Virus record (IMG/VR): IMGVR_UViG_3300031251_000073
Span: 1-34,624 of that record
Reading direction: 5' to 3' (one strand)
DNA from: a virus
Length of the DNA: 34,624 nucleotides
Below, one piece after another: positions 1,496-26,005 of this stretch (its first letter is position 1; each line of letters starts with the position of its first letter). Made by a program: the position numbers and the translations under genes. The notes beneath the pieces were generated by a model. That model was not told where the DNA came from. It searched no databases and saw nothing but the letters and a program-made list of their open reading frames with translations.

Positions 1496-1717
1496 TTAGA
1501 AGCGATATACAACAGCGAATGATGCTTTTAAGGAAGCGTTTAGTTGCTTGCGTCCTAAAGCTGTATTAGACAGCTTAGGAATCACCAGGGCGATGTTGTT
1601 CAGTGTCTCTGTAGCCTTAATCATAGGATCAGAAAGAATGCCGTAGAAAGCACTCCTATGAGCAATGTGAGCTTGAAGCTTCTTTACCTGTCTTTCATAA
1701 TCTCGTTGATACGTCAT
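1496..1717 (-). CDS. Hypothetical 73-aa basic protein
   Basis: I do not recognise this gene. It encodes about 73 residues beginning MTYQRDYERQVKKLQ, mostly helical and basic, with no clear motif. The frame stays open upstream to 1870, but that stretch overlaps the rightward promoter and leader and reads unlike protein, so the ATG at 1717 is preferred; 1732 is another possible start. There is no good ribosome binding site at either, but a TATAAA box ends six bases before the 1717 ATG, so the message could be leaderless. It is the first gene of the leftward unit and is divergent from the rightward operon, which would suit a small regulator. The stop codon is followed at once by TGGCCACT. Confidence 0.55.
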   Translation of the reverse strand: MTYQRDYERQVKKLQAHIAHRSAFYGILSDPMIKATETLNNIALVIPKLSNTALGRKQLNASLKASFAVVYRF

Positions 1718-1767: not shown

Positions 1768-1776
1768 TGGTAGAAT
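1768..1776 (+). promoter_or_regulatory. Extended -10 promoter for the rightward operon
   Basis: TGGTAGAAT matches the extended -10 pattern TGnTAnAAT. Transcription would begin near 1783, just before the structured leader. The -35 region is weak (TGTTTT at 17 bases), which is usual for extended -10 promoters. It is the only obvious promoter placed to serve the six rightward genes. Confidence 0.5.
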
Positions 1777-1782
1777 AAAGAT

Positions 1783-1846
1783 GTAGGCTTTCCTTCCAGT
1801 CGTGGATGGTAGCCACGAATATCAGCTTCGGCTGGAAGGAAAAACT
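1783..1846 (+). ncRNA. Structured 5' leader, three-way junction hiding the ribosome site
   Basis: The leader of the rightward operon contains three nested helices. P1 pairs 1789-1796 (TTTCCTTC) with 1835-1842 (GAAGGAAA). P2 pairs 1800-1805 (TCGTGG) with 1813-1818 (CCACGA) around a seven-base loop. P3 is CAGC-TTCG-GCTG at 1823-1834, closed by the very stable UUCG tetraloop. P1 can instead extend to an 11-bp perfect helix (1789-1799 with 1832-1842) at the cost of part of P3, so two folds compete. In both, the GGAAGGAA Shine-Dalgarno sequence before the ATG at 1847 is paired. This could be a translational operator, a thermometer or a ligand-sensing RNA; as DNA, the perfect inverted repeat could also be a protein operator. 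The pairings are seen directly; the function is inferred. Confidence 0.6.
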
Positions 1847-2002
1847 ATGTCTAAGAAATCCCCTATCCAATTAATTCAATATCCAAAACAAAGAGACGGT
1901 ATCGATTACATCAGCGACAAGTATGTTGCTAGACTTGTAAAAGAAGCTGACGACCGCTATTGTGCTAAACTCAAAAATAAGAAAAAGGTAAAGAAATCAT
2001 GA
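1847..2002 (+). CDS. Small basic protein, first gene of the rightward operon
   Basis: A 51-residue protein, MSKKSPIQLIQYPK at its start and KKKVKKS at its end, so both termini are strongly basic and it probably binds nucleic acid. I recognise no family. GGAAGGAA lies just upstream of the ATG but is held in the predicted leader helix, so its translation, and through coupling that of the genes behind it, may depend on unfolding that RNA. The TGA overlaps the next ATG by four bases (ATGA). An in-frame GTG at 1802 would add 15 residues but has no ribosome site and lies in the leader structure. A different-frame 22-codon frame at 1806-1874 also crosses the start and could act as a short upstream frame. 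Confidence 0.75.
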   Translation: MSKKSPIQLIQYPKQRDGIDYISDKYVARLVKEADDRYCAKLKNKKKVKKS

Positions 2003-3222
2003 GTAAATTGAATAACAAGAAAGAGAAAGCTAAGGGTTCAGAGAACCTAATCATCCTATGTAGGACCAGAAAGATAACTAGTGATGACGCTGGTTTACCT
2101 GAGTGGGATTTTCTTAAGGAAGAGTATTCGTCTGAGGAAGTCGAATCTACGGCAGATCGTCTAGTAGTATCACTAGCCAATTCCTGCATTCAGCAACGTA
2201 AGGTGATATTCTGCTTAGCTCGGCGCTCTACTCAAGATCTCCTGAAGAATGATGGTAACTGGTCTCAAGGCACAGGATTTAAGAATGAGGATTGGAGCTC
2301 TTTGAGACGAGAGCTCATTAATAGGGAGATCATAAAAGAGAGATTTGCTGGCAGTGGTCAGCAACCGAGCATCTACGAATTGGTGTCTCCGGCCATCCTC
2401 GAGTACATTATTGTGGACAAAGAGAAGCAATACAAGGAAGCAGTTGAATTCATTAATAAATTGGCAGGCGATACTGAGGGGACCACAATGGGGACCAGCC
2501 CTGGGGACCGAGTCTTAGTCCCAGTGTCAGTGGGAGTGCTAGTAGAGAAGGGAAGCGTGCTTGCTGAACCTCTTAAGAAGGAAGAAGACAAGCCGTCCAT
2601 AAGGGACATAGTTGCATCCTGGAAGGGTGAGAACGGTGGATTAGATAGTGTGAGCGGTAAGATAGCTGCTCAAACCATTCCTGACTTAGTTGAGACTATC
2701 AAGCACTATGGATACTCAAAAGACGAAGTCTATCCTAAAAACTTAGTTAAGTGGATCTTTGCTGATAAAGCTACTCCTAAGAATAAGGTATGGATGGATG
2801 ACATAGAGGGAAAGCTTATAGAGGCATTAGCTATAGGCTTTCAAAAGGTTACCGTTAAGGCCTTTAGTGGACCTAATCCTGCCTACAAGCTATCTCCTGA
2901 GGAAAGAGTACTATTTGATAGATGGACCTCTGAGGGTAAGACTCCCGCAAACTTCAATGGATTGTCCTTAGAGGAGGCAGCTATCCAGAGAGTTCATGCT
3001 AACTCCTTCACTATCCTAAATACTAAGGAACTTGAGGAGAAAGAACCAGTAGACCTATCTAGCATGTCGGGCACTATAGTCATTGGTGATGTAGATACCT
3101 CAATAGATGACAGGTTGCAGATGTCTGAGGAGAGTTTTATGCATAACTTTGGCAGTCAATCTCCTGAGAATCAATTGAAACTCAGGCAGGTCATCAATGT
3201 TTCTCCTGAGAAGAATATATGA
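1999..3222 (+). CDS. Large protein of the rightward operon, candidate replication or takeover factor
   Basis: The 407-residue protein is the only large product of the rightward operon and I do not recognise its family. Residues from about 15 to 140 are helical with basic patches and a stretch around SSLRRELINREIIKER that could form a winged helix. Residues 140-210 look like a low-complexity linker rich in Gly, Asp and Val. The rest is mixed helix ending in an acidic tail. No Walker, polymerase, primase or nuclease motif is seen. Because the genome has no other candidate for starting replication, an initiator or host-takeover role is plausible, but that rests on position only. It overlaps both neighbours by four bases (ATGA), so all three are probably translated as a coupled unit. 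Confidence 0.85.
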   Translation: MSKLNNKKEKAKGSENLIILCRTRKITSDDAGLPEWDFLKEEYSSEEVESTADRLVVSLANSCIQQRKVIFCLARRSTQDLLKNDGNWSQGTGFKNEDWSSLRRELINREIIKERFAGSGQQPSIYELVSPAILEYIIVDKEKQYKEAVEFINKLAGDTEGTTMGTSPGDRVLVPVSVGVLVEKGSVLAEPLKKEEDKPSIRDIVASWKGENGGLDSVSGKIAAQTIPDLVETIKHYGYSKDEVYPKNLVKWIFADKATPKNKVWMDDIEGKLIEALAIGFQKVTVKAFSGPNPAYKLSPEERVLFDRWTSEGKTPANFNGLSLEEAAIQRVHANSFTILNTKELEEKEPVDLSSMSGTIVIGDVDTSIDDRLQMSEESFMHNFGSQSPENQLKLRQVINVSPEKNI

Positions 3223-3392
3223 AATCCTTAAATATTTACGTGTTCTCAGTTAAAGGTGTTTACAACTATGAGTGTACTAGATTAATATTACTCCTAAGTA
3301 AGCTAGGTCTTAAGTGTGAACCTATTACGGGAGTAGTTGATATGAAAGTGAAAGCGTATAGTTATAAAGGTAGGATTAAGCATGCCAACTAA
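3219..3392 (+). CDS. 57-aa protein with LLLSKLGL motif
   Basis: This short gene fills the space after the 407-residue protein. It starts at an ATG overlapping the previous TGA (ATGA), with GAGAAG upstream as the ribosome site, and ends 11 bases inside the next gene. The 57-residue product begins MKSLNIYVFSVKGVYNYE and has the segment RLILLLSKLGLKCEP. The same LLxKLG(L/I) core, followed by a small residue and a Pro, occurs in the proteins at 3382 and 4144, so the three appear to be paralogs. No function is known to me. The tight overlaps on both sides are the main evidence that it is translated. Confidence 0.7.
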   Translation: MKSLNIYVFSVKGVYNYECTRLILLLSKLGLKCEPITGVVDMKVKAYSYKGRIKHAN

Positions 3393-3615
3393 GAATCCCG
3401 TAGTTGCAAGTAACCTAGTCTATCTCCTAGGTAAGCTGGGCATTAAGTCTGCTAAACCTATGCTAATGTGGTGGTCTGGTCATACACTAAAAGAACTATA
3501 TAATAACGACTATGATAACTTAAGTCACTTAGTATACAGTAAGAACTCATTTCTTAGACTTATAGATATTAACGAAAGTGCGCACAACAAAAGTAAATGT
3601 AGGAGTAAACGATGA
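3382..3615 (+). CDS. 77-aa protein with LLGKLGIKSA motif
   Basis: The 77-residue product has NLVYLLGKLGIKSAKP near residue 11, the core shared with the genes at 3219 and 4144. After this comes a WW pair and a helical region (HTLKELYNNDYDNLSHLV), then a basic tail ending CRSKR. A GGTAGGATTAAGC ribosome site precedes the ATG. It overlaps the preceding gene by 11 bases and the next by four (ATGA). The family is not recognised; the motif looks like one helix and turn of a small helical domain. Confidence 0.75.
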   Translation: MPTKNPVVASNLVYLLGKLGIKSAKPMLMWWSGHTLKELYNNDYDNLSHLVYSKNSFLRLIDINESAHNKSKCRSKR

Positions 3616-4163
3616 GTTGGATTACAGATATTATATACGGTTCACCAGCTGGTAGTACCACCACACAGAACCAACTGGTACAGGCTAACCAGACTCAGGG
3701 TCAAGTTCAGCAAGCCCTTCAAGCTCAGCAACAGGTGAATGCCATCAGCAACCAAGTTGGTCAGCAACAGGTGAATGCCATCAGCAACCAAGTTGGTCAG
3801 ATCTTACATAGTTCTATCTACTGTCCTCAAGGTACAGGGTATATCAGCAGCGGGCAGCTCATAATGAACCCACAAGACATCAATCCTGACGTGGCTGAAC
3901 AGATGAAAAGAGAGTACCTATCAAAGAAGAAGGAACAGTTTCTAAAACACTCCCAAACTCACAGAAATGCCTTCCTTGACAGTTTGCGTGCCAAGAAGGT
4001 ATCTGAGGACATGGACAGCGATAATAGCTTCTTCGGTGTCAATAGGGCAGGTTATGCATCATGGCAGGCTCCTGAGTCTCGATTTATAAGTTTAGAGCAG
4101 TATGAGGAATGGGATGCAAGCGCTATCATTGATGAGATTCTAGATGACGAAACCGTTTCCTAA
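3612..4163 (+). CDS. 183-aa Gln-rich protein with tandem repeat
   Basis: The 183-residue protein starts with a good AGGAG site and overlaps the previous TGA. Residues 17-65 are very rich in Gln, Asn and Val and contain two exact copies of a 12-residue unit (QQQVNAISNQVG) encoded by a 36-bp perfect tandem repeat. Residues 66-90 contain YCPQGTGYISSG, and from about 92 to 130 there is a charged helix. The C-terminus is acidic (DEILDDE). The Gln-rich repeats resemble coiled-coil spacers in virion proteins, yet the gene is in the rightward operon rather than among structural genes. I do not recognise the family. The last 20 bases overlap the next gene. Confidence 0.8.
   Translation: MSWITDIIYGSPAGSTTTQNQLVQANQTQGQVQQALQAQQQVNAISNQVGQQQVNAISNQVGQILHSSIYCPQGTGYISSGQLIMNPQDINPDVAEQMKREYLSKKKEQFLKHSQTHRNAFLDSLRAKKVSEDMDSDNSFFGVNRAGYASWQAPESRFISLEQYEEWDASAIIDEILDDETVS
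3725..3800 (+). repeat. 36-bp perfect tandem duplication inside a coding region
   Basis: Copies at 3725-3760 and 3761-3796 are identical and four bases of a third copy follow. The unit is twelve codons, so the frame is kept. Perfect identity points to a recent duplication by slippage and predicts copy-number variation between strains. Confidence 0.95.
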
Positions 4164-4362
4164 GAGTCGAAGTGAGCTCCAGAGCGGAGATAGAGTGGCC
4201 ATAAGTGACCTTTTAAGACTATTGTCCAAGCTAGGGCTCACTTCAGCCGACCCGTTGTTTCCTTATTGTGGCGGTTCAGCTCGTATGGACCAAGTGTTAA
4301 CTATGCTGCAACTAGGATTGATTGACGATGCTACAGCTAGAAAGAGGCTAGGGTTTAAATGA
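4144..4362 (+). CDS. 72-aa protein with LLSKLGLTSA motif, last rightward gene
   Basis: The 72-residue product carries ISDLLRLLSKLGLTSADP around residues 20-37, the third copy of the core found at 3219 and 3382. Here it is followed by a short linker and two further helices (MDQVLTMLQLGLIDDATARKRLG), giving the look of a complete small helical domain. The gene overlaps its upstream neighbour by 20 bases and stops one base before the stop of the facing leftward unit. It has no strong ribosome site, so it probably depends on coupling. Function unknown. Confidence 0.75.
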   Translation: MTKPFPKSRSELQSGDRVAISDLLRLLSKLGLTSADPLFPYCGGSARMDQVLTMLQLGLIDDATARKRLGFK

Positions 4363-4363
4363 A

Positions 4364-4537
4364 TTACTCATCCAGCCCAATGTCAACTGGGCTGGATGAC
4401 ACCTCTGCTTGTTTAAACTCACCTGAGTCGATCGTAACACCACATCCACACTTCAACCACCTATAAGGGTGATAGGGTGCCTCTTGGTCAGCAGCATACT
4501 GCATGTAACAAGAGCAATCTTTACAGATTCTTGTCAT
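4364..4537 (-). CDS. 57-aa zinc-ribbon-like protein, last leftward gene
   Basis: Starting at the ATG at 4537, the 57-residue product reads MTRICKDCSCYMQYA and later LKCGCG, so it has CxxCxC and CxC pairs that could bind one zinc. The start overlaps the end of the holin-like gene by 17 bases; the open frame extends upstream to 4591 but that part only shadows that gene. It is the last gene of the leftward unit, just after the membrane proteins, and its stop is one base from the facing operon's stop. The final codons encode one arm of the inverted repeat at 4369-4398. Role unknown. Confidence 0.65.
   Translation of the reverse strand: MTRICKDCSCYMQYAADQEAPYHPYRWLKCGCGVTIDSGEFKQAEVSSSPVDIGLDE
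4369..4398. terminator. Perfect 11-bp hairpin at the convergence of the two units
   Basis: CATCCAGCCCA and TGGGCTGGATG form a perfect GC-rich stem with an eight-base loop, placed where the rightward and leftward units meet. It works on both strands. Neither side has a good run of T, so it could be a weak bidirectional terminator or a block to RNA decay rather than a classical intrinsic terminator. It also encodes the last residues of the zinc-ribbon protein. Confidence 0.55.
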
Positions 4538-24679: not shown

Positions 24680-26005
24680 TTACTGAGACAGAGAAACTAC
24701 AGCGTTAGCAACAGGACTTGAGCAAGTAAGGTTGCCATATCCGCCGACCGCAGTTTGCACAGCATCCTGGCCAGCCACTGGAAGACCAATTTGGTCAAAC
24801 AATCCTGGGTAGGTGATAAACTGGGCCATCTTGCCGTTAAAGCGAAGCTTCCACGTCTTAAGGGTGATGATGTACGCTGTTTGAGGCGCACAGTTGCGGT
24901 CTTGAAGTATCGCTATCTCACCGTTAGCCGTTGGGAGTACCAATGCCTTAAACGATAGGGATGCTTCCTCATTGATCTTAGCCTTGATCATCTGGTACAC
25001 GCCTTGGCTAGTCAACTGCTTCAATAGCGCCTGGTAAGAGGCTGGATTGATGAAGATGAAGTCAGGATCACCAGCTTCGGTGCCTTGAGCCGCAAGAGTG
25101 TTAACTGCGTCAATAAGTGCGTCTTGGATAGATTCACTAGATCCTGAGAAACGCAATCCAGCGAGCTGGGTTGGAGACACAGAACGATTGACACTGAAGA
25201 ATAGGTCAGATCCGCTTGGAGCAGTGCTTGGGATCCAAGCTCCGAAACCAGCCATCTTCAACATGTTAGCAGAACTAAGTCCGTTAGTGATGAAATTGAC
25301 ATCGCCGATCTGAGCGAGGTAAGGGAAAGAAGTTGACCAGTTGGAAGGAACCCCAGCAGCACCAGCGAAGGTAGCTGATACCGTTACAGTTCCAGCACCA
25401 GTATCAACTGCTATGACGTATCCTACTGCTGCGCCAGTACTCTGAGTAGGAGTCTGGCCAGAAACACTGTAGCTTACGAGAGCCATACCAGGAGTGAAGT
25501 TGAGGGCTGATTGAGCACTATCAAGAGTGATAACACCACTCGAAATAGATCCAGCACCAAGTCCGTAAGTTCCACGTTTACCTGACCCGTCACCGAACAA
25601 CATAAGAGCATAGTCATTTCCAAGAGACTGAAATGCAGACTTAACGTTAAGTTCAGCAGCTGGCATGAAGGCGCCAACTGATTCAGCAGAGGCTCTCAAG
25701 AAGTCACCGGTAAGGACAAAGTTTGAGTAGTTTTGAGTACGAGTGACTTGGAATTCAACCGTTTGTGGAGCAGAAGAGTTGTTTTGAGCAATGCCTAAAG
25801 CAGCAGAACGACCGCCACCTGGATTCACTAGAGCTGGGATCGGGAAGTACTTACCGCCCATACCAGATTCACTTTCGTCTTTGTCGATGAGAGCCAGAGC
25901 TGGATTCCTATTTAGGATGTACGACTTCATTACCCATGCGTCGTCTGAATAGAGTTCCTTTAGAGTTGCAACGTTAGTTACTGCACTTGATGTACTGTTT
26001 GACAT
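24680..26005 (-). CDS. Major capsid protein, HK97-type fold
   Basis: The 441-residue protein has the length and layout of podovirus major capsid proteins: an N-arm, an E-loop region (about 40-105, including GKYFPIPALVNPGGG), a P-domain helix (SVGAFMPAAELNVKSAFQSL), and a C-terminal A-domain (DPDFIFINPASYQALLKQL, then WKLRFNGKMAQFITY). Between about 152 and 232 lies an additional beta region with SSGVITLDSAQSALNFTPGM and GAGTVTVSATF, which may be a surface insertion. It comes after the scaffold gene and before a strong terminator. GGATAATTAAATG at the start means the ribosome site overlaps the scaffold stop. The identification rests on position and pattern, not on a database match. Confidence 0.88.
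   Translation of the reverse strand: MSNSTSSAVTNVATLKELYSDDAWVMKSYILNRNPALALIDKDESESGMGGKYFPIPALVNPGGGRSAALGIAQNNSSAPQTVEFQVTRTQNYSNFVLTGDFLRASAESVGAFMPAAELNVKSAFQSLGNDYALMLFGDGSGKRGTYGLGAGSISSGVITLDSAQSALNFTPGMALVSYSVSGQTPTQSTGAAVGYVIAVDTGAGTVTVSATFAGAAGVPSNWSTSFPYLAQIGDVNFITNGLSSANMLKMAGFGAWIPSTAPSGSDLFFSVNRSVSPTQLAGLRFSGSSESIQDALIDAVNTLAAQGTEAGDPDFIFINPASYQALLKQLTSQGVYQMIKAKINEEASLSFKALVLPTANGEIAILQDRNCAPQTAYIITLKTWKLRFNGKMAQFITYPGLFDQIGLPVAGQDAVQTAVGGYGNLTCSSPVANAVVSLSQ

Follow-up and report, generated by a model that had tools for sequence, protein, structure and literature searches.

A stable leader hairpin predicted to bury the first ribosome site of a rightward phage operon

Introduction

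Phage mRNAs are well known to occlude ribosome sites, and leaders that work kinetically are known in an RNA phage. In the account given in PMC6733600, translation of the MS2 maturation (A) protein is permitted by a transient fold before a stable inhibitory fold takes over. The DNA phage T4 provides examples at genes e, soc, 49 and I-TevI, where the Shine-Dalgarno (SD) sequence is paired within a stem that precedes the AUG (PMC3014915). The 5' UTR of lambda cIII contains an inhibitory structure that is relieved by RNase III binding (PMC2777011). Finally, in the type I toxin mRNAs aapA3 and hok, the full-length mRNA is translationally inert and metastable hairpins form during transcription (PMC6733600).

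The sequence analysed here, referred to in its whole length as the window, is a 34,624-base virus record from IMG/VR that is classed as linear. In it, a 64-nt 5' leader RNA (1783–1846, plus strand) heads a rightward operon. Like the T4 messages, this is a DNA phage mRNA with its SD sequestered in a stem, but in T4 late promoters located within the 5' arm open the hairpins, whereas here the promoter-like element lies upstream of the arm. The locus resembles MS2 in that an early transient open fold is followed by a stable inhibitory fold, a timing that is predicted here; MS2, however, is an RNA phage and its leader is a long cloverleaf, while the present structure is a 64-nt local hairpin in the mRNA of a DNA phage. 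The two folds of lambda cIII are unlike those described below. As in aapA3 and hok, a metastable hairpin is predicted to form co-transcriptionally, yet theirs hold the mRNA off and the one predicted here would hold it on. The 51-aa protein encoded behind the leader, which is basic and not hydrophobic, further separates this locus from the type I toxins.

Results

The leader is predicted to fold into an exceptionally stable hairpin that contains the SD

In the minimum free energy (MFE) fold, the ground state of the leader is one continuous hairpin with a 14-bp stem containing a single U-G pair. Its 5' arm (1789–1802, TTTCCTTCCAGTCG), the anti-SD arm, pairs with the 3' arm (1829–1842, CGGCTGGAAGGAAA), and the stem is extended by weak inner pairs and by 4 or 8 outer pairs, depending on where the transcript starts. 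The SD of the first gene (GGAAGGA, 1834–1840), located 6 nt upstream of the ATG at 1847, lies entirely within the 3' arm. The segment 1777–1860 folds with −39.9 kcal/mol (z = −8.3), none of 200 shuffles was as stable, and it ranked first in stability among 23,028 84-nt windows taken from both strands of the record. On re-testing, the leader scored z = −7.5, whereas the z-scores of nine other very stable windows lay between −1.4 and −5.5.

The SD bases are essentially all paired at 37 °C, and opening them costs 16.6–16.8 kcal/mol. This makes the SD of the 51-aa gene the most buried of 38 gene starts, with the next at 7.5 kcal/mol; according to the folding model, a cost of about 17 kcal/mol would be enough to shut initiation. 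As in known SD-sequestering leader hairpins, the SD is thus placed by the predicted fold in a stable local mRNA helix. The proposal of the first-pass annotation that the first ribosome site is concealed in the leader therefore receives strong support from folding (SD in the 3' arm, opening cost 16.8 kcal/mol), and we consider it highly probable, on the basis of these models, that the leader is an SD-occluding RNA element.

Stem length by itself is ordinary, as GU-tolerant stems of at least 14 bp occurred in 58 of 60 shuffled windows. Such random 14-bp stems, together with the failure to find the leader in related phages (see below), would fit a product of chance or an assembly artefact without a role, but a z-score of about −8, the top position among all windows and an SD more than twice as costly to open as at any other gene make this very improbable. 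The leader is also the longest inverted repeat found in the window, with 33-nt arms. Its near-perfect arms and its position in a divergent promoter region could suit a DNA operator, or a 5' hairpin that chiefly stabilizes the mRNA, with SD burial as a side effect. Against either role, the arm sequence is not repeated in the window beyond chance and the arm coincides exactly with the SD, whereas stabilizing hairpins usually keep the SD free. We regard such a role as quite improbable.

Genome context and gene layout

The terminase and capsid genes, including a portal and a major capsid protein of SU10 type, are on the minus strand and are faced by the short rightward cluster (1847–4362). This cluster is separated by a divergent region of 129 bp, with the leader at its right end, from a 73-aa gene (1496–1717, minus strand) that had no homologue in the searches made. 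The operon begins with the 51-aa basic orphan gene (1847–2002, plus strand), the product of which has a predicted C-terminal helix at residues 24–50 (single-sequence model, pLDDT 75). Its stop codon overlaps the start of a 407-aa orphan gene (1999–3222, plus strand) in an ATGA. The SD of this second gene is weak, and with the overlap the sequence indicates that it is probably translationally coupled to the first, so that a gate in the leader would probably act on both. The structure model of the 407-aa protein was unusable (pLDDT 41). The remaining ORFs of the operon, of 57, 77, 183 and 72 aa (3219–4362, plus strand), each overlap their predecessor. An inverted-repeat search also found a perfect 12-bp hairpin in the convergent region (4368–4399, plus strand); despite a weak T-run, it likely marks the end of the operon and serves as a two-way terminator between the operon and the late genes.

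Residues 35–66 of the 77-aa ORF (3382–3612, plus strand) resemble residues 14–45 of the phage's own major capsid protein (24680–26005, minus strand), with 14 of 32 positions identical (E = 1e-5), and identity to the capsid proteins of relatives reached 58% (E = 4e-7). The corresponding DNA is only 52% identical, which points to an old copy. With such a version of the capsid N-terminal arm, a small protein could disturb or tune capsid assembly. Separately, a motif around LLxKLG(L/I) is common to the 57-aa (3219–3389), 77-aa and 72-aa (4144–4359) ORFs on the plus strand, with low scores, and suggests that the three are small paralogues.

Searches of related phages found neither the leader nor the 51-aa and 407-aa genes

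Using the capsid protein, we gathered 41 related loci (L009–L049), several of them records of 34–38 kb and many of them fragments, in which a missing match is not proof of absence. These loci represent an uncultivated phage family whose nearly complete members measure about 35 kb; they carry SU10-type capsid genes, and their early regions vary greatly. The capsid protein of the window had no match in the cultured-phage collection, and no prophage of the family was found in the bacterial genome contigs searched for a host. In the nearest relative (G001, 34,807 bp), the capsid and terminase are 93% and 80% identical, respectively, and the early region is different. Neither the leader nor the 51-aa and 407-aa genes were found in any of the 41 related phage records, G001 included; local tblastn over the relatives recovered other genes, so the search worked. 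Similarly, neither the leader nor these two genes turned up in the collections of cultured phages, plasmids and bacterial genomes to the extent searched, one genome-collection search, run without a positive control, having returned no candidates. The 183-aa gene likewise had no homologue in the searches made.

Searching viral contigs with a stricter DNA pattern of the leader gave 0 matches. A looser pattern of the arms returned five stretches, which we rejected as leader homologues: four repeat one sequence that lies where a primase-helicase-like gene starts, and L003, the fifth, looks unrelated. Just past the start codon of the primase-helicase-like gene, L002, L004, L005 and L006 carry a 16-bp inverted repeat with arms TTCCTTCC and GGAAGGAA, which is unrelated to the leader and possibly forms an mRNA hairpin of its own. 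In G001 (L007, L008), arrays of short repeats at both ends code for SHAPRH-like and AYGSS-like peptides and are perhaps a single array split by the assembly of a circular genome.

A putative promoter places the transcript start upstream of the 5' arm

An extended −10 promoter element, TGGTAGAAT (1768–1776, plus strand), predicts a transcript start at about 1783. Its pattern occurs 9 times in the window and is no commoner than a reversed-pattern control (11 times), so the promoter inference is based on its location between divergent genes and not on pattern frequency. There is no good −35 near TGGTAGAAT, and a promoter scan of the window did not list it. The predicted start precedes the whole structure, rather than lying downstream of 1800, a position that the first-pass annotation had named as incompatible with its leader.

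The position of this element also bears on a silencer of the T4 gene e type, in which transcripts reading in from upstream are closed and a productive promoter inside the 5' arm yields an open leader. The arrangement is well documented at T4 e, soc, 49 and I-TevI (PMC3014915). At the leader, the sole promoter-like element, TGGTAGAAT, precedes the arm, and no promoter was found within it; moreover, the genes upstream are on the opposite strand, so no read-through message is expected. A silencer of this kind is accordingly a highly unlikely explanation.

The three-way junction appears in simulations as an intermediate

The first-pass annotation had drawn the leader as a three-way junction composed of P1 (1789–1796 with 1835–1842), P2 (1800–1805 with 1813–1818) and P3 (1823–1826 with 1831–1834, closed by UUCG at 1827–1830), competing with a perfect 11-bp P1 (1789–1799 with 1832–1842). 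All of these complementary stretches are present. As the ground state, however, the junction gave way to the long hairpin (−25.7 versus −34.0 kcal/mol for 1783–1860), a difference of 8 kcal/mol with Turner parameters and of 2.3 kcal/mol with those of Andronescu 2007 (long hairpin −28.7, junction −26.4), which give the same order with a smaller gap. The junction does appear in simulations as a folding intermediate, and P2 (1800–1818, plus strand) lies on the route to the closed hairpin while being absent from the ground state.

The switch attached to this model received no support, since the SD is paired in both of the proposed states and moving between them would leave ribosome access unchanged. 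An RNA thermometer is also unlikely: mean predicted SD accessibility rose from 0.04% at 37 °C to 0.8% at 70 °C, staying below 1% up to 70 °C, where the leader remains closed. The annotation had recognized no known riboswitch class, in agreement with the 0 matches at gathering score to Rfam riboswitch and leader families in the window.

A competing open fold is predicted to form first during transcription

Folding of successive transcript lengths revealed an alternative 5' hairpin (1783–1816, plus strand), which pairs 1783–1784 with 1815–1816, 1786–1789 with 1811–1814, 1792–1793 with 1808–1809 and 1795–1798 with 1803–1806. As the transcript lengthens, this hairpin forms before the closed one, reaching −14.6 kcal/mol in the prefix 1783–1818, and captures the anti-SD arm. 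It requires a transcript start no later than 1786, and the extended −10 element predicts one at about 1783. Together with the cUUCGg hairpin (1823–1834, plus strand; P3 of the annotation), which is present both in this open state and in the three-way-junction intermediate, it has an energy of −20.0 kcal/mol compared with −34 kcal/mol for the closed state, and leaves the SD beyond G1834 free. We estimated the barrier from open to closed at 13 kcal/mol or more for transcripts that end before 1850 and at about 10 kcal/mol from that length onward; a barrier of about 10 kcal/mol implies an open-state lifetime of the order of seconds or longer.

The stability of the open fold was matched by 2 of 2,000 shuffles that preserved the arms and scrambled the spacers and by 7 of 2,000 dinucleotide shuffles, although the fold had been spotted before testing and the resulting p of about 0.001 is post hoc. 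In prediction only, the leader thus behaves as in MS2, with an earlier fold that frees the SD and excludes the stable one.

Co-transcriptional folding was simulated stochastically at the base-pair level with chain growth; the energy model is approximate and time is in arbitrary units. With growth set to 300 units per base, 11 of 16 native runs were open at the end and 5 were closed, the latter having mostly passed through P2 and the three-way junction. At 3,000 units per base, 22 of 24 native runs had not closed by the end; among control leaders that kept the arms but had their spacers shuffled, each simulated once, this was so for 17 of 40 (Fisher p = 7e-5). Four or more of the six SD bases were free in 16 of 24 native runs and in 3 of 40 shuffled leaders at this setting, with the SD just partly free in several open native runs. 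The contrast was weaker at a faster setting (not closed in 19 of 24 native runs versus 33 of 60 controls), as many random leaders close slowly anyway. Taken together, the simulations are suggestive of open-first folding.

Processing by RNase III and binding by a trans-acting factor

RNase III could in principle supply the opening step. In the leader of T7 gene 0.3, RNase III cleavage frees the SD. With its inner and outer pairs, the 14-bp stem amounts to more than 20 near-continuous pairs, a plausible target when judged against the usual RNase III substrates. The primary transcript would then be closed, and cleavage or binding of the stem by the host enzyme would free the SD, with a precedent in the lambda cIII 5' UTR, the inhibitory structure of which is relieved by RNase III binding (PMC2777011). 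Under this explanation, which we consider unlikely, the open alternative fold would have no purpose.

Alternatively, a trans-acting factor could bind the hairpin, whether the 51-aa product itself (autoregulation), another phage protein or a small RNA. The operon starts with the gene for a small basic protein in which a C-terminal helix is predicted, and repression by phage proteins at such sites is exemplified by T4 gp43 and RegA (PMC3014915). Yet searches with the 51-aa protein gave no homologue or match to an RNA-binding family, complementarity to the arms elsewhere in the window does not exceed chance, and the RNA is predicted to close unaided; we therefore judge such a factor improbable. 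The ligand sensor that the first-pass annotation had listed next to a protein operator found neither support nor contradiction in the analysis.

Discussion

On the basis of the predicted folds, we propose that the 64-nt leader may control ribosome entry to the rightward operon through RNA folding alone. In nascent RNA, the 5' hairpin would occupy the anti-SD arm and be followed by the UUCG hairpin, with the SD mostly free. Ribosomes would load on these new, still open transcripts, while older or idle ones would snap into the closed hairpin. The outcome would be a burst of synthesis linked to ongoing transcription and then self-limitation, an effect that coupling through the overlapping genes could carry downstream. 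The promoter and the start site behind this model are themselves predictions.

The components of this proposal differ in strength. That a gate or timer operating by folding alone is the whole explanation of the leader is the reading that we favour, although it falls short of being probable, and the kinetic order itself, open and then closed, is put forward tentatively from the folding models. Against it counts that the searches yielded no homologous leader, and hence no covariation, with nothing comparable in the 41 related records. The most specific version, in which a dsDNA phage gates an operon by a kinetic timer that needs no protein, stays open for seconds to allow ribosome loading, then becomes an inert hairpin and so ties translation to active transcription, is doubtful.

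If the leader is only static or is processed by RNase III, it would be an unremarkable case from a phage family not yet described. If the timer is real, the operon of this DNA phage would be headed by a timer that is short and self-contained, and the leader would offer a model for folding during transcription.
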